In this document: piece after piece, positions 9,787 to 50,582 of the stretch
Layout: the number at the start of each line of letters is the position of its first letter
How positions within the stretch are numbered: the first letter of the stretch is position 1
NCBI GenBank assembly: GCA_017303655.1
Contig: JAFLCE010000021.1
Coordinates: 1-50,582, forward strand
Reading direction: 5' to 3'
Source of the DNA: Anaerolineae bacterium
GTDB taxonomy: Bacteria; Chloroflexota; Anaerolineae; Anaerolineales; Villigracilaceae
Length of the DNA: 50,582 nucleotides
Program-made: the position numbers and the translations under genes
Notes under the pieces: model-generated
What the model saw: only the letters and a program-made list of their open reading frames with translations
What the model was told of the DNA's origin: nothing
Databases searched by the model: none

Positions 9787-9848
9787 GTAGGGGCGACCCG
9801 CCCAGCGGGATGAACTCGCCTTGCACAACCCTGAAGGGTCGCCCTTAC
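9787..9848. repeat. palindromic GTAGGGGCG-type intergenic repeat
   Basis: A 62-bp element bounded by imperfect 13-bp inverted repeats (GTAGGGGCGACCC at 9787-9799, GGGTCGCCCTTAC at 9836-9848, one mismatch). Its ends match those of a shorter element at 43069-43095. It separates the upstream mini-gene terminator from the alaS promoter and looks like a small non-autonomous palindromic repeat. Confidence 0.65.
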
Positions 9849-9853
9849 GCTGT

Positions 9854-10003: not shown

Positions 10004-10009
10004 ATTATA
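10004..10009 (-). promoter_or_regulatory. -10 box of the 26-residue ORF
   Basis: Perfect TATAAT on the minus strand, seven bases before ATG 9996, predicting a leaderless mRNA. No clear -35 box is seen. Confidence 0.6.
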
Positions 10010-10083
10010 CAGGGCATAAGGGAATTTGGGGAGGGGTATAACCTATCTCCAAAAGCAGAAAACTGATCGATTCAAAGTTGATA

Positions 10084-10092
10084 TGCTATAAT
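10084..10092 (+). promoter_or_regulatory. extended -10 promoter of the Trypco2/CHAT-GTPase operon
   Basis: TGCTATAAT is a perfect extended -10. It would start transcription near 10099, giving a 27-base leader with GAGGAAA before ATG 10126. Confidence 0.65.
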
Positions 10093-10125
10093 TATTTAGT
10101 GGTATTTGTACAAAATTGAGGAAAA

Positions 10126-10473
10126 ATGTCAATTACAACAAAAGAGTTAGGTTTACGTGAATTCATAAAACAAATCAAGAATGAATTATTGCTATCTCAA
10201 AGCAACCCTGAAGAGAAATTTTTGTACATTGAAGAAATTGAGATTGAAATAAATATTGTAGTTAGTGGAGATATTAATAGTGGTTTTAATTTGGGGGTTA
10301 TAACACTAGGCAGTGAAGTAAAAGAAGACAGAATTCAGAAAATAAAAGTAAAGCTATCTCCTTTGGTTTCTAAAGAAAACACTTTTGCTTCCATGTCGAA
10401 AAAAGAAAAGAATACAACTAAAGAACTATCAAAAAAACACATTTTCCGATCAACCTCTAAAAAACAGTCTTAA
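10126..10473 (+). CDS. Trypco2-like (trypsin-co-occurring domain 2) protein
   Basis: A 115-residue protein. Residues 1-80 resemble the Trypco2 domain: an N-terminal helix (LREFIKQIKNELLLSQ), a charged beta-strand pair (IEEIEIEINIVVSG), a turn and LGVITLGSEVKEDRIQKIKV ending in KVKLSPL. The last 35 residues are Lys/Ser/Thr-rich and look disordered. Trypco domains were described from comparative genomics beside trypsin-like proteases, CHAT proteases and NTPases in predicted bacterial conflict systems; their biochemistry is not established. GAGGAAA precedes the start. The CHAT-GTPase gene follows after 35 bases, so this is probably its partner or substrate. Base composition is much more AT-rich than the neighbours, suggesting transfer. 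Confidence 0.65.
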   Translation: MSITTKELGLREFIKQIKNELLLSQSNPEEKFLYIEEIEIEINIVVSGDINSGFNLGVITLGSEVKEDRIQKIKVKLSPLVSKENTFASMSKKEKNTTKELSKKHIFRSTSKKQS

Positions 10474-10508
10474 AGCACACCTTATCTTCTGGTTCAAGGA
10501 TAAACCAC

Positions 10509-13274
10509 ATGTCTAAAACAATATTAATCGTTACGGCAAATCCTGATAATACAGAAAGAATTAGATTTGACAAAGAAGTTAGAGATATAGATGAAGGTTT
10601 GAAAAGAAAATGGAAATCATCTTATAAAATTATATCAATCTTTGCTGCCCGTCCAAAAGACATAAGAAGAGCAATTCTAGATCACCAGCCCTCTTTTGTT
10701 CATTTTTCCGGGCACGGAGAAGGTGAAGAAGGTATAGTTTTTGAAGATGAATCAGGAAATCAAAGGACTGTAGATTCAAACACCCTTGCTGAATTCTTCA
10801 GTTTGTTTGTAAATGACATTTCTTGTATTGTCCTAAATGCATGTTACTCTGAGGTTCAAGCCAAGGAAATAGCAAAGTATATTCCGTATGTAATTGGCAT
10901 GCAGAAAGAAATCGAAGATAAATCAGCAATTGCATTTTCTGTTGCTTTTTATGACGGAATATTTGCAGGATTAACTATTGAAAAATCGCATAAATTAGCT
11001 TCAAATGCAATAAAGTGGGAAGATACGGAATTAGAAAACACTCCACAACCAACACTAGTAAGAGGCGAGTCGAGAGGAAATCTCCTTTTAGCAGAAAAAA
11101 TAAAACCGCCTCAAAAAAACAAAAAAAATATATCACAAAAAACACAACAAGCAAAATCAAACAGAAATACTATCGACATTTACACAGAGAATCTCTTTGA
11201 GGTCATGAGTAAATTTGAACTTCTTATCAAAACAGAAATAAAGCGAACAAAAGATAAGAAAATAATCGATTCACTTAAAGACCTAATGAATAAAACAGAA
11301 AAGACCAGACTTGATTTAGAAAATCAATCCTTTAAGGTTGCAATAATTGCATTAGCAAAATCTGGTAAATCGTCTTTACTTAATGCTTGGCTAGGAAATG
11401 AGTATTTACCTTCTTCAAATGTGCCTGAGACAGCGAATATTATTCGCATCAAACACAACATAAAACAAAAGAAGGGAGCCTTAACTCATAGAAACTCTTC
11501 TCCTATCGTTGGCGCGAATCAAATTCGCGCATATATCGAAAAACTTAATAAGCAAACTCGCGACCAGAGAAAAGATCCAATTAGAGAGGAGATAATCCTT
11601 GAAGCACCAATTCAGACCCTATCCAATACTTCATTTGATAGATTTAAGTTTGAGATACTTGACACCCCCGGACCAAACGAATACGGACAAGAAAAATTAA
11701 AGTTGGCGGTTGATGAAGTACTAGATAAATCAGCTGTAATAATTTACTTGTTAGATTACACAAAACTTAAGACAGACGAAGAAAATAACATTCTTGAAAA
11801 ACTCAGGTCAATGAGAAAAAATCTAATAGAAGATTTTTCAGATCGTTTATTTTTCGTTATTAATAAAATCGATCAGTTTGATCGAAACAGCTTACCTATA
11901 GAAGAAATACCCTTCTATGTCTCAAAACTGCTAGAGTCACAAATTGAAGGGCTTAGAATTCCTCCACAAAGAGTACTTTTGGTTTCTGCTAAAGATGCAT
12001 TACTATCAAGAATTATACAGAACGACGAATCAACACAAGAGCAACGTCTTGATTTTGCAAGAGTTATGTTTGGTCTTAGTTACAAAGAAAAAGCAATAAA
12101 CAGCGAAAGGCTTAAGAAGTACGCAAAAGGGCTAGAAGAAACTAGCCGCATAGCTGAACTTGAAGAAAAAATATTAGAATTTATATACTCACAAAGACGA
12201 CGACTCTTATTACTTGGCACAGCAGATGAAATAGATAGAAATCTACTTGTTTTTGATAACTACTTAGCTACAATAATTGGGACATTAAATGCGGATCAAG
12301 AGAAACTTCAAAATGAGATACATATTTTAGAAAAAAAGATAGACAACATAATAAAAAACATCAAGGATATTAGAGAGAAAGTGAGTAATTACAAAAAAAA
12401 AGCTGATATTGAAACAGAAAGCTTAATATCAAACTTTAGATTAGATACTCACAAAATAATAGTAACTGCGTTCAAAGGCGCAGAAAATGCGGAAATGACC
12501 TTTTTATCTGTTTCTATTCCATCGGGAATAAAAAAATTGATGCAACAAGTTAGACTGGAATTTAAAAGTTTTAGTGTTAAAAACAAGGATAAGGAAATTG
12601 TAGTTGCATCATTGTCGAATATAAACGCACACATATCAAAGCTTCTTGAATTCACATATGATGAATTGACAAGCAACATACAATCCGTCCTTTATAAATT
12701 GCAAATAAGCTTAACGGAAGAGCTTAGAAAAGAACTTATTCCCTTAACCAAGGAGATTGAAAAAGAGATTGAGGAAACGCTTAGTATTTCTCTTCACCCA
12801 ATAAACATCAACCTCAACTTCCCTGAAAGAAAGGATTTTCTTGGCAAGCTTATTCAAGAATCAGAATCAATTATCACATCAACAAGAGTTTCTTCTTTTA
12901 AAGTAAAACCCAAACTGGCATGGGGATGGTTGCCTTGGATAGATATACAATTTTTTGAAGATGAGTATGAAATATCATCAGATGAATATCAAAAACGTTT
13001 TCGCGAGCAATTAGAAAAGATAAGTGGTCTATGGCAAGAAATAGTGAAAAACCATATTAACAATGAATTCAACCCTATTCTTAATGTTGTACAAAACAAG
13101 CTGGATGAATACTCAAAAACATATATATCTACAATAAAGGATAACATAGTTACAGATCAAAAGAAAGAAAATAATAGGAAGGCAAAGCTTGAACTAATCA
13201 AGCAGGTTGCACAAGAACAAAACAATTTGATTTCAACAATAAATGTTATAAGAAAATTCTTAAAAGAATCTTGA
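10509..13274 (+). CDS. CHAT caspase-like protease fused to a dynamin-like GTPase
   Basis: A 921-residue fusion. Residues 1-190 form a CHAT (caspase-like) domain with the His-Cys dyad H69 (FSGHGEG) and C112 (VLNACYSE). After a Lys-rich linker (about 190-220) and a helical segment comes a dynamin-family GTPase: G1 ALAKSGKSSLLNAWLG with K287 (first Gly of the P-loop replaced by Ala), a Thr switch (PETANIIRI), G3 DTPG (385-388) and G4 NKID (452-455). Residues 560-921 are helical, with a coiled coil at about 590-630, as in dynamin stalks; a Trp-rich patch (LAWGWLPWIDIQFF) could touch membrane. No transmembrane helix is evident. Likely role: a membrane or assembly sensor that activates a protease, typical of abortive-infection systems; this is inference. 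AT-rich like its partner. Confidence 0.8.
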   Translation: MSKTILIVTANPDNTERIRFDKEVRDIDEGLKRKWKSSYKIISIFAARPKDIRRAILDHQPSFVHFSGHGEGEEGIVFEDESGNQRTVDSNTLAEFFSLFVNDISCIVLNACYSEVQAKEIAKYIPYVIGMQKEIEDKSAIAFSVAFYDGIFAGLTIEKSHKLASNAIKWEDTELENTPQPTLVRGESRGNLLLAEKIKPPQKNKKNISQKTQQAKSNRNTIDIYTENLFEVMSKFELLIKTEIKRTKDKKIIDSLKDLMNKTEKTRLDLENQSFKVAIIALAKSGKSSLLNAWLGNEYLPSSNVPETANIIRIKHNIKQKKGALTHRNSSPIVGANQIRAYIEKLNKQTRDQRKDPIREEIILEAPIQTLSNTSFDRFKFEILDTPGPNEYGQEKLKLAVDEVLDKSAVIIYLLDYTKLKTDEENNILEKLRSMRKNLIEDFSDRLFFVINKIDQFDRNSLPIEEIPFYVSKLLESQIEGLRIPPQRVLLVSAKDALLSRIIQNDESTQEQRLDFARVMFGLSYKEKAINSERLKKYAKGLEETSRIAELEEKILEFIYSQRRRLLLLGTADEIDRNLLVFDNYLATIIGTLNADQEKLQNEIHILEKKIDNIIKNIKDIREKVSNYKKKADIETESLISNFRLDTHKIIVTAFKGAENAEMTFLSVSIPSGIKKLMQQVRLEFKSFSVKNKDKEIVVASLSNINAHISKLLEFTYDELTSNIQSVLYKLQISLTEELRKELIPLTKEIEKEIEETLSISLHPININLNFPERKDFLGKLIQESESIITSTRVSSFKVKPKLAWGWLPWIDIQFFEDEYEISSDEYQKRFREQLEKISGLWQEIVKNHINNEFNPILNVVQNKLDEYSKTYISTIKDNIVTDQKKENNRKAKLELIKQVAQEQNNLISTINVIRKFLKES

Positions 13275-13353
13275 TTGTTCTTAAAAGTTTAGTTAAGTTT
13301 AATGGTATTCCTCGATTGTCCTAACCAAAAGAAAATAATCTTATAAGAAGAAT

Positions 13354-13476
13354 ATGAATGCCACCCAACAACCTACCTTTTGGATTCCCATCCTCAAAAG
13401 AAAAAATGCAGCCTTTCGTCAGGCTGCATTTTTGATTCAGTTGTACATGAATTCTCACCAAATTATCAGCCACTGA
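13354..13476 (+). pseudogene. truncated N-terminal copy of the membrane protein at 14550
   Basis: A 40-codon frame beginning MNATQQPTFWIPILKR, which matches the start of the intact protein at 14550 (MNTTDQPTLWSLILKS) at 10 of 16 positions. Similarity stops where a terminator hairpin (13402-13433) begins, so only the first exon-like stub remains. It carries an AGAAG ribosome-binding sequence. Probably a remnant of a duplicated gene lost by deletion, perhaps when the AT-rich island arrived next to it. Confidence 0.5.
13402..13433 (+). terminator. intrinsic terminator downstream of the CHAT-GTPase operon
   Basis: A 13-bp stem (AAAAATGCAGCCT, loop ttcgtc, AGGCTGCATTTTT) with a trailing T-run. 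It is the first strong terminator after the operon and lies inside the truncated reading frame. Confidence 0.88.
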
Positions 13477-14430: not shown

Positions 14431-14549
14431 CTTTAATTAGTTACACCCGCGCACATGAACGGGCAAACACCATTCTTTGAATAAACGGGACAAACCTCAC
14501 TTGTACTCCCCCATCAAAACTCATATCCTAAGTGGGAAAGGAAATGGAT

Positions 14550-46847: not shown

Positions 46848-48170
46848 ATGGCAGTTACGAACATCCCCGGACCCAAAACAAAAGCAATGATCGAACGTGA
46901 TCGAGAAGTGATCTCACCCTCCTACCCGCGCGGGTATCCCTTTGCCATGGACCACGGCAAAGGCACGGAGGTGTGGGATGTGGACGGAAACCGTTACCTA
47001 GATTTTATGGGCGGGATTGCCGTGGTCGCCACGGGACATTCACACCCGCAGGTGGTGAAAGCCATTCAAGAACAGGCAGAGAAGTTCATTCACATCTCGT
47101 CCGATTTCTATCATGAGAACTGGGTGCGGCTCGGTGAAAAATTGAGTGAGATCGCGCCGTTCGAAGAAGGTGCGCTTTCGTTCATGACCAACTCGGGCAC
47201 CGAGGCAGTGGAAGCCGCGATCAAGCTGGCGCGCTACCATACCAAACGTTCGAACTTCATCGGCTTTACGGGCGCTTTTCACGGGCGGACGATGGGCGCG
47301 GTGACCTTTACTGCCAGCAAGGCAAAATATCACAGCGGGTTTTATCCGCTGATGAACGGCGTGACGCATGCGCCCTTCCCCAACCCCTACCGCCCGATTC
47401 TGGAGCGGCGAAAAGGCGAAGATTATGGTGAGGCGGTGGTGCGTTACATCGAAGAAGAGATCATTGCTCAAATTCTGCCTGCCAAAGAAGTGGCGGGCGT
47501 GTTGGTAGAGACCATTCAAGGTGAAGGCGGGTATATTGTGCCGCCCGATGGCTTTTACCCTGCGCTACGAAAATTCTGTGACAAGCACGGCATTATGCTG
47601 ATTCTGGATGAAGTGCAATCGGGTATGGGACGCACCGGCAAGTGGTGGGCAATTGAACATTTCGGCGTGGAGCCGGATATCATCACCTCGGCGAAGGGCA
47701 TTGCTTCGGGCATGCCGCTGGGCGCCTGCATTGCACGCAAATCGGTCATGGATTGGGAGATCGGCTCACACGGCAACACCTATGGCGGGAATCCCATCTC
47801 CTGTGCCGCCTCGCTGGCGACGATTGACCTGATCGAGAAGCAATATCTTCAGAATGCCAAAGAAGTTGGCGACTATGCGATGGATGCGCTGGTGGAGATC
47901 CAGTCGCGCCACCCGAGCATGGGCGACGTGCGCGGCAAAGGCTTGATGATCGGCGTGGAGTTCGTAAAGGACCGCGAAAGCAAAGAACCCGCCAAAGCCT
48001 TGACCGACCGCGTGGTGGACCTGGCGTTCGAGCGCGGCTTGCTGATGCTCTCTTGCGGACAAAGCGTGATTCGCATCGCGCCGCCGCTCTCGATCAACAA
48101 AACTGAAGTGGACGAAGGCTTACGCATGTTCGAAGAAGCGCTGACGCAGGCGGAGAAAGAATTGATGTAG
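46848..48170 (+). CDS. class III PLP aminotransferase (GabT/ArgD-like)
   Basis: A 440-residue class III aminotransferase, PLP-dependent. Visible motifs: NSGTEAVEAAIKLAR, GAFHGRTMG, LDEVQSGMGRTG and the catalytic lysine K283 in ITSAKGIASGMPLGA. The sequence resembles 4-aminobutyrate and acetylornithine aminotransferases; which one cannot be decided, and no gabD or arg gene is adjacent. The start at 46848 follows AAGGAGAAAG; the longer frame lies in a repeat. A strong terminator follows. Confidence 0.92.
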   Translation: MAVTNIPGPKTKAMIERDREVISPSYPRGYPFAMDHGKGTEVWDVDGNRYLDFMGGIAVVATGHSHPQVVKAIQEQAEKFIHISSDFYHENWVRLGEKLSEIAPFEEGALSFMTNSGTEAVEAAIKLARYHTKRSNFIGFTGAFHGRTMGAVTFTASKAKYHSGFYPLMNGVTHAPFPNPYRPILERRKGEDYGEAVVRYIEEEIIAQILPAKEVAGVLVETIQGEGGYIVPPDGFYPALRKFCDKHGIMLILDEVQSGMGRTGKWWAIEHFGVEPDIITSAKGIASGMPLGACIARKSVMDWEIGSHGNTYGGNPISCAASLATIDLIEKQYLQNAKEVGDYAMDALVEIQSRHPSMGDVRGKGLMIGVEFVKDRESKEPAKALTDRVVDLAFERGLLMLSCGQSVIRIAPPLSINKTEVDEGLRMFEEALTQAEKELM

Positions 48171-48179
48171 TGAATAGGG

Positions 48180-48213
48180 AAGTCCCTGGGTGAAACATCC
48201 CAGGGACTTTTTT
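48180..48213 (+). terminator. intrinsic terminator after the aminotransferase gene
   Basis: 11-bp stem AAGTCCCTGGG / CCCAGGGACTT with an eight-base loop and a T-run, nine bases after the stop. Confidence 0.88.
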
Positions 48214-48261
48214 ATACTAAAAATCTCACTCAAAGAGATAAAATATCTTAATTTGGATAGT

Positions 48262-48609
48262 TTATCTCTCAAGTATATTGAAATAGAGACCTAAAAATCC
48301 TACCCCCCAAAAGACTACAATTAACAATATACCTGAGAATATAGCCCACCTACCTCGTATTGTTTGACTTGATACAACTCCAGGCATTTCTTTTTTATAG
48401 ATATACACAATGCCAATCATCCCAATCAAGAAAGATACAATAAAAAGAACTAAAGCACTCCAGATGGGATCTTGCAAGGGATTGATCGGATCGATTATTA
48501 CCCATCCTGCCATTAGGATAATGGCTAAAATCATTAAGATAGTTACTAAATTACTAGCAGATTTGCTATCTATATATTGAAGGATTATCTTCTTAATTTT
48601 GATTATCAC
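48262..48609 (-). CDS. small three-helix membrane protein
   Basis: A 115-residue membrane protein with three hydrophobic segments (about 19-37, 48-71 and 88-111). The C-terminal half (SSQTIRGRWAIFSGILLIVV) matches that of the protein at 49224 (GIPTLRGKVAVAFGILFILM), so the two are paralogues. Starts with GTG at 48609 after GAGGT. AT-rich, no recognised function. It follows an RHS-like fragment at 48673, which makes an immunity-protein role possible but unproven. Confidence 0.6.
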   Translation of the reverse strand: MIIKIKKIILQYIDSKSASNLVTILMILAIILMAGWVIIDPINPLQDPIWSALVLFIVSFLIGMIGIVYIYKKEMPGVVSSQTIRGRWAIFSGILLIVVFWGVGFLGLYFNILER

Positions 48610-48672
48610 ATTATTACCTCATTAGTTTATTCAGAATTTGACGAGATGATGATGCACATATCCAAAGCAATT

Positions 48673-48750
48673 CTACGCCTGCGGGTTGGTCGGGTCTAGA
48701 ATCAACGTATCCGGCTGGATGAAGCGGTGAAGATAAGGGAAACCAGGCAT
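48673..48750 (-). pseudogene. RHS/YD-repeat core tail fragment
   Basis: A 25-codon frame, MPGFPYLHRFIQPDT then LILDPTNPQA, closely resembles the end of the RHS repeat-associated core (PYL-x-RF-x-Q-x-D-T pattern followed by DP and NPQ). It stops where the variable toxin tip would begin. It is too short to be a gene and is best read as a displaced or decayed RHS end. A related copy lies at 49184-49234. Confidence 0.55.
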
Positions 48751-48802
48751 TTATTCATTAATGTGCCGAACCTTGATACAGTTCATTAATAAATTTGTAT
48801 AT

Positions 48803-49099
48803 TTATGAAATAATCATTTCAAAGTAAATACCAGCAATTAATCCCAGAATGCCCATTAAGATTACTACTCCACCGAATATCAGACTGCTCCACCCTGATT
48901 TAATTGGATTCTTTTTTTTCAAAAACTCTCTTTCTCTATTAACTGCATCCTCTGTTTTCCCCACAGACTGCAAAATAAACAATGCAACCTTCTCCATCGG
49001 ATCTAAAGTTGCCTGCCTCGTTTTTATTTGTTTTGCCCCGCGCAATGCTATATAGAGACCAGCAACAATAAACAATAAGGATCTTAAGATTTCAGCCAT
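48803..49099 (-). CDS. small two-helix membrane protein
   Basis: A 98-residue protein with two transmembrane helices (about 3-20 and 73-95) and a charged loop between (REFLKKKNPIKSGW). Not recognised. GGGAGAAG precedes ATG 49099. It lies between the two RHS-like fragments. Confidence 0.55.
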   Translation of the reverse strand: MAEILRSLLFIVAGLYIALRGAKQIKTRQATLDPMEKVALFILQSVGKTEDAVNREREFLKKKNPIKSGWSSLIFGGVVILMGILGLIAGIYFEMIIS

Positions 49100-49183
49100 T
49101 TACTCTTCTCCCAAGAGAATTTTTATCCTATTCAGTAAGCTAATAATTCTAAGGCAAAATTTCACTAATTACCCGTCATCAAT

Positions 49184-49234
49184 TTATTGTTGAATAATGA
49201 TTATCTCTGGCTGGCTGAAGTGGTTAAGATACGG
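49184..49234 (-). pseudogene. decayed RHS-core tail fragment, second copy
   Basis: Reads PYLNHFSQPEIIIIQQ then stop, in a different frame from the gene ending at 49224. Over 31 bases it matches the fragment at 48708-48738 at 25 positions. It keeps the PYL-x-x-F-x-QP spacing of the RHS tail but has lost the downstream part. Confidence 0.45.
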
Positions 49235-49595
49235 TGAAATTACCAATCGAAAATTGTTGCAAAATAGAAACGATCCCTCCCCCTGTGAACATCAATATAA
49301 ATAAAATACCAAACGCTACAGCCACCTTACCTCTCAATGTTGGTATACCTGGGACTATTCTATATTTTATGCACCAAATACCACTGAGCCCAACAATAAT
49401 AGAGCTTAATCCAATGGATATAATTTCAGCTAATATTTTATTATCGATTAAGTATCCAGAAATAATTCCCATAGGGAAGAGTAGTAAACCAACTATCATT
49501 GGCGTGTAAATTTTTCTCAAAACAGTTTCATCGAATTCAAGAACTTGTGAATTCTTTCTGTTAGTTAACTTTCTTTTTTCCACTTCACACCTCAT
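49224..49595 (-). CDS. small three- or four-helix membrane protein
   Basis: A 123-residue membrane protein, paralogous to 48262 (GIPTLRGKVAVAFGILFILM near the C-terminus). Hydrophobic segments at about 30-48, 55-75 and 92-112. Start is ambiguous: ATG at 49595, or GTG at 49583, which has AGGTG five to six bases before it. Its last bases overlap a decayed RHS-like fragment in another frame. Function unknown. Confidence 0.6.
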   Translation of the reverse strand: MRCEVEKRKLTNRKNSQVLEFDETVLRKIYTPMIVGLLLFPMGIISGYLIDNKILAEIISIGLSSIIVGLSGIWCIKYRIVPGIPTLRGKVAVAFGILFILMFTGGGIVSILQQFSIGNFTVS

Positions 49596-49700
49596 TATTC
49601 AAGAAAGCATAATTGTACTTACCGTCATGACTGCAATCTTATTTAGAACATTTACATTCCTGTTACAAGTTCTCTAATAAGTAAAGCTTTCTAAATAGAA

Positions 49701-50021
49701 TCAATCAAACAATCTATAAATTACAAAAAACAAGGCATCGGCAAATTGCTTAAATGCCCAACCTAAAACAATACTCATTATGAGGGTATACGGTATTAAT
49801 TTCAAGTCTCTCGGAAATACAAGTGTTATTTTTGAAAAATTCTGAGAATTATTGTCTGACCCGAAAAACTCCCTATAAACAAGCAGCAGAAGCCATCCGG
49901 TTAATACTAATTTAACCACTACTTCATATGTGTATAAAGTTTTGTAGGCAATATACCCGCCTAAAAATACAGTCGCAACAATCAATATAACAAAAGCGTA
50001 ATTTACTAATTTATTTTTCAC
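49701..50021 (-). CDS. small three-helix membrane protein
   Basis: A 106-residue protein with three hydrophobic segments (about 5-24, 30-50 and 76-100). Starts with GTG at 50021 after GGTGGG. Not recognised; AT-rich like the neighbouring membrane-protein genes. The 105 bases between this gene and 49595 hold no clear gene. Confidence 0.5.
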   Translation of the reverse strand: MKNKLVNYAFVILIVATVFLGGYIAYKTLYTYEVVVKLVLTGWLLLLVYREFFGSDNNSQNFSKITLVFPRDLKLIPYTLIMSIVLGWAFKQFADALFFVIYRLFD

Positions 50022-50043
50022 GGTAACCCACCACGAATTTAAC

Positions 50044-50075
50044 AGACATCCCGCAGAATACTCTGCGGGATGTCT
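50044..50075. terminator. intrinsic terminator between 50021 and the partial gene
   Basis: 14-bp stem AGACATCCCGCAGA / TCTGCGGGATGTCT with a four-base loop. It follows the stop of the partial gene at 50089 on the minus strand. Confidence 0.85.
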
Positions 50076-50088
50076 TCTTTTCCTAACC

Positions 50089-50582
50089 TTACGGGCTTAC
50101 ATACACAGCATAATCGTCCACATAATCACCGGGCGCGTAGGGAGTGTCACCGATGCCGTCACTGATCGCGCTTTTGAAAGTGGCGGTCAACACGGCGTGA
50201 TGTTCACCCGGCTTCCAATCGGAAAGCGCCGTATAAACGAGGCGGCACTGACTTCCACCTGATTCGGTCTCAAAGACCGCGAGTTGGTCGGCGGGCAGGT
50301 CTTCGCCGTTCAAATTGAAGTTCAACTGAATCTGGCTAAAGTTCTGCTCGAGTGTGGCTTGGTCTTTGGCACACCAGGCATACGCCCAGATCAGCGTCTC
50401 AGAATTATTGAGCGGAATGGTATAGGTGAGAGTGCGCGGCTCAAAAATCTCTTCATCATATTGCTCACGGGCAACATCCCAGAAGAATTGCGCACCCGCC
50501 GAAAAGGCGTTCTCGGCTTCTTCAGGAGAAGCAACTTTGGGCGAGGAGAGAGGCGTAATGCCTGCACCCTTCGGCTGACTGA
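50089..50582 (-). CDS. partial gene of unknown function, 5' end outside the window
   Basis: An open minus-strand frame runs from the right edge to a stop at 50089, at least 164 codons. Only the C-terminal part is present. It reads EEAENAFSAGAQFFWDVARE then AYAWCAKDQATLEQNF and ends APGDYVDDYAVYVSP. Two Cys and a beta-rich composition suggest a secreted domain. A TTG-initiated shorter frame at 50325 is not the true start. No family is recognised. Confidence 0.6.
   Translation of the reverse strand, partial: SQPKGAGITPLSSPKVASPEEAENAFSAGAQFFWDVAREQYDEEIFEPRTLTYTIPLNNSETLIWAYAWCAKDQATLEQNFSQIQLNFNLNGEDLPADQLAVFETESGGSQCRLVYTALSDWKPGEHHAVLTATFKSAISDGIGDTPYAPGDYVDDYAVYVSP

Follow-up and report, generated by a model that had tools for sequence, protein, structure and literature searches.

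A Trypco2 gene and a CHAT–dynamin fusion gene in an AT-rich segment of an Anaerolineae genome: a candidate bacterial conflict module

What might a dynamin-family GTPase do on the same chain as a caspase-like protease, encoded directly behind a small Trypco2 gene? The question is raised by a locus in the window, as we call the whole stretch of DNA analysed here: 50,582 nt of the forward strand of contig JAFLCE010000021.1 from an Anaerolineae bacterium (Villigracilaceae; assembly GCA_017303655.1). The original prediction, made from the letters alone, had singled out these two genes as a candidate defence system. We find that the combination of Trypco2 with a CHAT–dynamin protein is new within the databases searched, and that it belongs to a kind already known, in which a small constant partner goes with a caspase-fold protease and a swappable module. 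The genes and the parts of their products are the following.

10126..10473, + strand: gene for the Trypco2 protein, 115 amino acids (PF19631, 38 bits against a cut-off of 24.2)
10509..13274, + strand: gene for the CHAT–dynamin fusion, 921 amino acids (PF12770 and PF00350, both above the Pfam cut-offs)
10509..11048, + strand: CHAT caspase-like protease domain, residues 1-180 (PF12770, 32.5 bits against a cut-off of 24)
10713-10715, + strand: H69, the second His of HFSGHG
10842-10844, + strand: C112, the Cys of NACYS
11061..11138, + strand: lysine-rich linker, residues 185-210, recognised by composition
11316..12008, + strand: dynamin-family GTPase domain, residues 270-500 (PF00350, 63.4 bits against a cut-off of 27)
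12111..13271, + strand: long helical region (putative stalk), residues about 535-921, seen as helices in a low-confidence model

Both open reading frames are intact and lie on the same strand, 35 bases apart, which bears out the two-gene layout first described; so does the composition for the AT-rich island, the GC content of 10084-13433 being 32.3% against 51.4% and 49.7% in the flanks. The source assembly is a draft (172 contigs, 93.6% complete, 5.8% contaminated), and reliance on a single case in such a genome is the main weakness of this analysis. A misassembled chimera was considered and dropped: a single open frame runs through both parts, their GC content is equally low, and the flanking DNA agrees with that of the genus.

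The identity of the first gene as Trypco2 is confirmed by its PF19631 score. The protein ends in a basic tail, with nine Lys or Arg and three Asp or Glu among its last 32 residues, and a Trypco2 profile found no match among solved structures. The CHAT domain with its H69/C112 pair likewise stands, with the two residues where they had been placed; the dyad is unchanged in all 13 aligned CHAT domains (the window's, one from L003, a relative within the genus, and 11 from proteins of cyanobacterial plasmids, at 45-53% identity to the window's). The structural model of the fusion was built on a shallow alignment of seven sequences (mean predicted local distance difference test, pLDDT, 50.5; predicted template modelling score 0.31), in which CHAT residues 1-180 reach a pLDDT of 61-87 (in blocks of ten). 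With this model, Foldseek ranks five chains of the activated SAVED-CHAT filament 8tl0 first (E 2.3e-11 to 2.1e-10), followed by a C11 protease (E 6e-5), with caspases only at E values of at least 0.003, among unrelated weak matches. The CHAT part is, as modelled, of caspase-like fold.

The dynamin-family assignment holds as well: PF00350 is above its cut-off and the G1, G3 and G4 motifs are at the predicted positions, with K287 as the P-loop Lys of SGKSS, DTPG at 385 and NKID at 452. A profile of five GTPase domains compared with the PDB matches the bacterial dynamin-like protein 2j68 (E 5.9e-33) and also the 5owv pair, mitofusins, IniA and LeoA, with other GTPases in between; Foldseek also places the bacterial dynamin pair 5oxf, at E 1.3e-3 and a probability of 0.57. 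Of the helical stalk that had been proposed, helices are indeed predicted over residues about 535-920, in a region where pLDDT is mostly below 60, so that the stalk is seen as predicted helices only. Across residues 191-220, overlapping the lysine-rich linker, pLDDT falls to 28-33 (in blocks).

Does the pair recur? We searched PF19631 in two draws, one of 301 genomes of the phylum (three above cut-off) and one of 396 genomes of the class (five above), which together yield seven genomes (G000, G157, G253, G529, G582, G612 and G641). In five of these (G000, G157, G529, G582 and G641), a CHAT gene directly adjoins Trypco2. Genomes from the families of G529 and G582 added none: Trypco2 occurs in one of 12 and one of 24, the query genome itself each time. 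The sole plasmid record matching the window Trypco2, a plasmid of Nostoc sp. C057 (locus L067), carries a trypco2 gene followed by a CHAT-NACHT gene. In the six pairs, the window's and five others, the two genes share one strand, with gaps of 6-72 bases, and CHAT retains the catalytic His and Cys (6/6). The order varies: in four of the five pairs other than the window's, CHAT is the leading gene, which puts Trypco2 second in four of the six. The five pair-bearing genomes hold 2, 3, 8, 10 and 19 CHAT places above cut-off, and the chance of adjacency in all five is about 1e-13 under a crude model (one gene per kilobase, two neighbour slots) that takes no account of the choice of these five out of seven. 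Trypco2 beside CHAT has already been published at least once, since one diversity-generating retroelement (DGR) locus carries Trypco2 with a CHAT-TIR protein (PMC10907252), while PMC7159879 ties Trypco2 to trypsin. From this small sample, our data suggest that Trypco2 beside CHAT is a regular association. Recurrence of the pair thus holds in part: Trypco2 with CHAT is seen in five of seven genomes and on the Nostoc plasmid, whereas CHAT–dynamin with Trypco2 was found here only.

What accompanies CHAT differs from pair to pair. The plasmid locus L067 has CHAT fused to NACHT and an alpha/beta-hydrolase gene upstream; L089 has CHAT fused to an AAA/STAND-like domain, with an AAA gene following; L090 (contig C1 of G582) holds a row of NB-ARC-TPR, EAD9-bDLD1, EAD9-CHAT and Trypco2 genes; and in L091 bDLD1 lies upstream, with beta-propeller proteins around. 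In L093, CHAT and Trypco2 were recognised and no additional partner. Among 11 cyanobacterial plasmid CHAT loci fetched from 69 matching plasmid records, five are annotated with a partner of the NACHT, NB-ARC or AAA-like type, either fused to CHAT or adjacent to it. EAD, death-like and STAND domains belong to the vocabulary of predicted conflict systems (PMC7159879, PMC8195603).

Some of these loci are worth describing in their own right. The row in L090 has the look of a compact apoptosis-like module. In L067 (NZ_CP040294.1, 1-4755), the alpha/beta-hydrolase, Trypco2 and CHAT-NACHT genes are consecutive, in contrast to the mutual exclusivity of Trypco-trypsin and hydrolase-caspase pairings in ternary systems described by Kaur et al. 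(PMC7159879). In G253 (L094, 2469-3056, minus strand), hydrophobic helices precede the Trypco2 domain in one open reading frame, and no CHAT occurs within the 9 kb examined. A Trypco2 match in G314 was dropped: it is below cut-off and reads antisense to a binding-protein-like gene.

How rare is the fusion itself? In a search of 101 genomes, the window's own among them, with the whole protein as query, no second full-length CHAT–dynamin protein was found: 20 genomes match, and apart from the window they do so only within residues 1-259, on the CHAT side. The dynamin part matches 15 of 301 genomes of the phylum and 22 of 392 of the class, the window included; with their own profiles (E 0.1), neither CHAT nor Trypco2 was detected in any of the 33 other dynamin loci examined, a set that does not count four further dynamin places which came without a locus. 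A whole-protein scan of genome contigs (84,980 species, close relatives only) returned one locus, L002, with a dynamin of 31% identity and no CHAT. Among plasmids, 114 records match part of the fusion and none covers 80% of the protein; 50 match the dynamin part, and the one fetched and scanned (L022) is without CHAT. Phages gave a single record with a weak match to the GTPase region. Viral contigs gave no relative of CHAT, of the dynamin part or of either Trypco2 (the window's and the Nostoc one) when each was scanned singly, and none of the dynamin when an alignment was used; an alignment of CHAT found seven CHAT loci (L128-L134; 30-33% identity to the window CHAT), none with Trypco2, so that CHAT genes may also be present in phages or prophages. 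Among the matches listed in PubMed Central, a collection that mostly lies apart from subscription papers and preprints, no title or abstract describes a CHAT–dynamin fusion. PMC7522525 contains both 'CHAT domain' and 'dynamin', but in unrelated places of its accessible text, and was set aside. Within these searches the exact fusion matches no characterised system. Rather than a new system standing alone, it is best seen as a variant form of a Trypco2-CHAT conflict module.

How did the two genes come to lie where they do? The limits of the segment were sought by comparison with the same genus.

10010..10036, no strand: left edge of the inserted segment, where conserved DNA upstream of alaS ends (same-genus blastn matches reach 10009-10035 at furthest)
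13551, no strand: first base of the conserved right flank, a short-chain dehydrogenase/reductase (SDR) gene, which adjoins the alaS side in the relative G007 (L096)

The start of alaS together with the DNA upstream of it, used as a query, has matches in 49 of 57 same-genus genomes (G003 and G006 over a short stretch only). Thirty loci were compared by blastn, namely the 29 returned by the alaS query besides the window and the G007 locus. None of the 30 shows island DNA, and its absence is claimed for the 27 whose sequence extends 1 kb or more beyond the alaS-side match, L109, L110 and L121 being too short to tell; a DNA search of this kind would miss a strongly diverged island. In six of the 30 (G007, G013, G018, G027, G032 and G045), the window genes from 13.55 kb on resume after 26-1129 bases. 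G007 has the alaS side up to window position 10009 and the SDR gene from 13551, with 132 bases between; G032 passes from window position 10010 through 26 bases to window position 14497. Low GC and absence from the same site in relatives together bear out the island character of 10084-13433. We favour, on these sequence comparisons, a horizontally acquired insertion over the alternative of loss in the others, because the segment is patchy and low in GC.

Which known systems does the pair resemble? In the EACC1 two-gene systems, a small 5′ gene is followed by one with an N-terminal caspase domain and a varying C-terminal module, of which up to 50 have been described, and an auto-proteolytic release of the effector is predicted (Kaur et al. 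2020, PMC7159879). The window is alike in its adjacent genes, with the small partner first and a 3′ gene in which a variable C-terminal module follows the N-terminal domain of the caspase superfamily; it differs in that the EACC1 partner has a membrane helix, whereas the 115-aa protein matches Trypco2 only. The words dynamin and CHAT are absent from the accessible main text of that paper. With VMAP ternary systems and DGR loci (PMC7159879, PMC10907252) the window shares a Trypco2 beside a peptidase; unlike in the ternary systems, the protease is a CHAT fused to a dynamin, and no trypsin-like peptidase, MoxR or vWA was found among the ten other window proteins scanned. The CHAT of the SAVED-CHAT protease (8tl0) is the nearest solved relative of the window CHAT by sequence and fold, but the window protein has no SAVED match and bears a dynamin GTPase in the sensor position; of the PADLOC SAVED_CHAT model, only profile positions 322-442 of 498 are matched, by residues 37-153, the SAVED domain not being matched.

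The bacterial dynamin-like proteins (2j68, the 5owv pair, IniA, LeoA and CrfC) have, like the fusion, a dynamin GTPase domain and then a long helical part; the window protein adds an N-terminal protease, and full-length similarity is low. Of the LeoABC (Eleos) system, PADLOC gives only a weak LeoBC match (E 0.028, 11.5 bits), and no LeoA model is listed. The GBPs are members of the dynamin superfamily. Human GBP1 assembles a platform that activates caspase-4 (PMC7314798), a likeness in logic only, that of a GTPase coat activating a caspase: the two are not homologous as systems, and the window unites both predicted activities in one bacterial protein. DynA delays lysis by phage and offers an analogy, being a bacterial dynamin that acts against phage at the population level (PMC8844932).

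What, then, would the pair do? The reading that we favour, at a confidence a little short of even, is that of a bacterial conflict module (defence or regulated suicide) of two genes, acquired by horizontal transfer, in which the dynamin part would be the switch that activates CHAT, in the position held by STAND or SAVED in other CHAT proteins; a defence role is what we infer from it. With GTP bound, the dynamin would oligomerise on a membrane that has been disturbed or on a structure made by a phage, and its assembly would draw the CHAT domains together via the flexible linker and turn proteolysis on, much as is thought for STAND or SAVED assembly with other CHAT proteins. Trypco2 would act as a partner dedicated to the protease, keeping it inactive or being the first protein that it cuts, and the infected cell would die or be arrested. 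As to its logic, the fusion would be a one-chain counterpart of the GBP coats that activate caspase-4. By analogy, the scheme first proposed, in which sensing by the GTPase would lead to proteolysis, is a reasonable hypothesis. The fuller proposition, that one bacterial chain joins a dynamin-superfamily GTPase assembling on compromised membrane to a caspase-fold protease that it activates, with Trypco2 as gatekeeper, is possible and rather doubtful.

Several observations weigh against a switch-driven conflict module. As no second fusion was found, the CHAT–dynamin architecture is without evolutionary replication. The GTPase and stalk are modelled poorly (pLDDT 25-61 in blocks past residue 190), and membrane binding and oligomerisation gain no structural support from this low-confidence model; that of Trypco2 is poor too (pLDDT 47) and was not used. 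Two of the seven Trypco2 genomes (G253 and G612, the latter with a match of 25.7 bits against the cut-off of 24.2) are without CHAT beside Trypco2. Loci approached from CHAT first almost never hold Trypco2: among 134 loci (overlapping fetches counted apart), most of which show only about 1.5 kb per side, 79 bear CHAT, and Trypco2 is confined to window copies, to loci approached from Trypco2 first and, weakly, to G253. The PADLOC matches comprise generic CHAT models and the weak LeoBC. The Pfam scan of ten other proteins of the window, eight from around the island and two from the AT-rich far end, recognised no known defence gene.

This last result would suit a gene for membrane maintenance or stress death, its dynamin sensing membrane damage of any source and its CHAT governing turnover or death, which we regard as fairly unlikely: the segment is patchy, AT-rich and absent from relatives, and the partners of Trypco2-CHAT elsewhere are conflict-type domains. 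Somewhat better placed, if still improbable, is a release model by analogy with EACC1, in which a signal through the small partner would prompt CHAT to cleave its own linker, releasing the dynamin as an effector that remodels or ruptures the membrane. It would share the two-gene grammar of EACC1, with its predicted auto-proteolytic release (PMC7159879), and the order of Trypco2 before CHAT-X is that of EACC1; the lysine-rich, low-confidence linker between CHAT and dynamin would fit it too. Against this, CHAT precedes Trypco2 in four of the other five pairs, and the partners recognised elsewhere, fused or adjacent, are mostly switches or adaptors and not obvious effectors. We prefer activation by assembly to release on account of these partners and of the assembled filament formed by the nearest solved CHAT.

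Two further explanations carry far less weight. In a toxin-antitoxin-like pair, a toxic CHAT–dynamin would be neutralised by binding of Trypco2, which the small first gene, short gap and shared strand would favour, as would the recurrent pairing of Trypco2 with CHAT; but Trypco2 is second in four of the six pairs, and published Trypco2 genes adjoin trypsin-like as well as CHAT peptidases, which fits an adaptor equally well, and we hold the idea to be very improbable. Least credible of all is a CrfC-like replication or chromosome factor that acquired a protease. CrfC is the top-scoring NCBIfam model (NF007368, spanning residues 381-910), but the whole protein scores 93.7 bits against a cut-off of 1146, and the best PDB profile relatives are membrane dynamins. 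A pattern search for QLSLPL-like and QxxLxF-type sequences, which we take to be clamp motifs, gave no match of the former and one of the latter, at 680, after which a clamp-binding CrfC factor was dropped.

If the fusion does work as a dynamin-switched protease, membrane-triggered caspase-like killing would become testable in one bacterial polypeptide. A membrane-type GTPase occupies the slot where other CHAT proteins bear STAND ATPases or SAVED sensors. Trypco2 as a possible regular neighbour of CHAT, beyond trypsin, would extend the published definition of the domain, and the Trypco2-CHAT pairing offers a search key for further modules of such kind.

Two transcription signals had been predicted at the ends of the island.

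10084..10092, + strand: extended -10-like promoter element TGCTATAAT, plausible only, read from the sequence
13402..13433, no strand: symmetrical terminator-like hairpin of 13 pairs, 5 of them G-C

The promoter element can be read in the letters, but it is only plausible, since it is missing from the sites of the sigma-70 scan, which are fewer than those in shuffled sequences (9 against 13.6). At 13402, where a strong terminator had been claimed, the hairpin is present, and the scan places it on the minus strand; it is among five terminator-like sites, against 2.0 (standard deviation 1.3) in shuffles. With arms that end in A5 and T5, the hairpin could work in either direction.

Elsewhere in the window, 48001-50582, at the contig end, is another AT-rich stretch (33-39% GC up to 50000) with short minus-strand open reading frames, two of which were scanned and gave no Pfam match. 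Upstream of alaS, at 9787-9850, an element of about 60 bases has many short matches scattered across genomes of the genus, as if it were a repeated terminator or small element.

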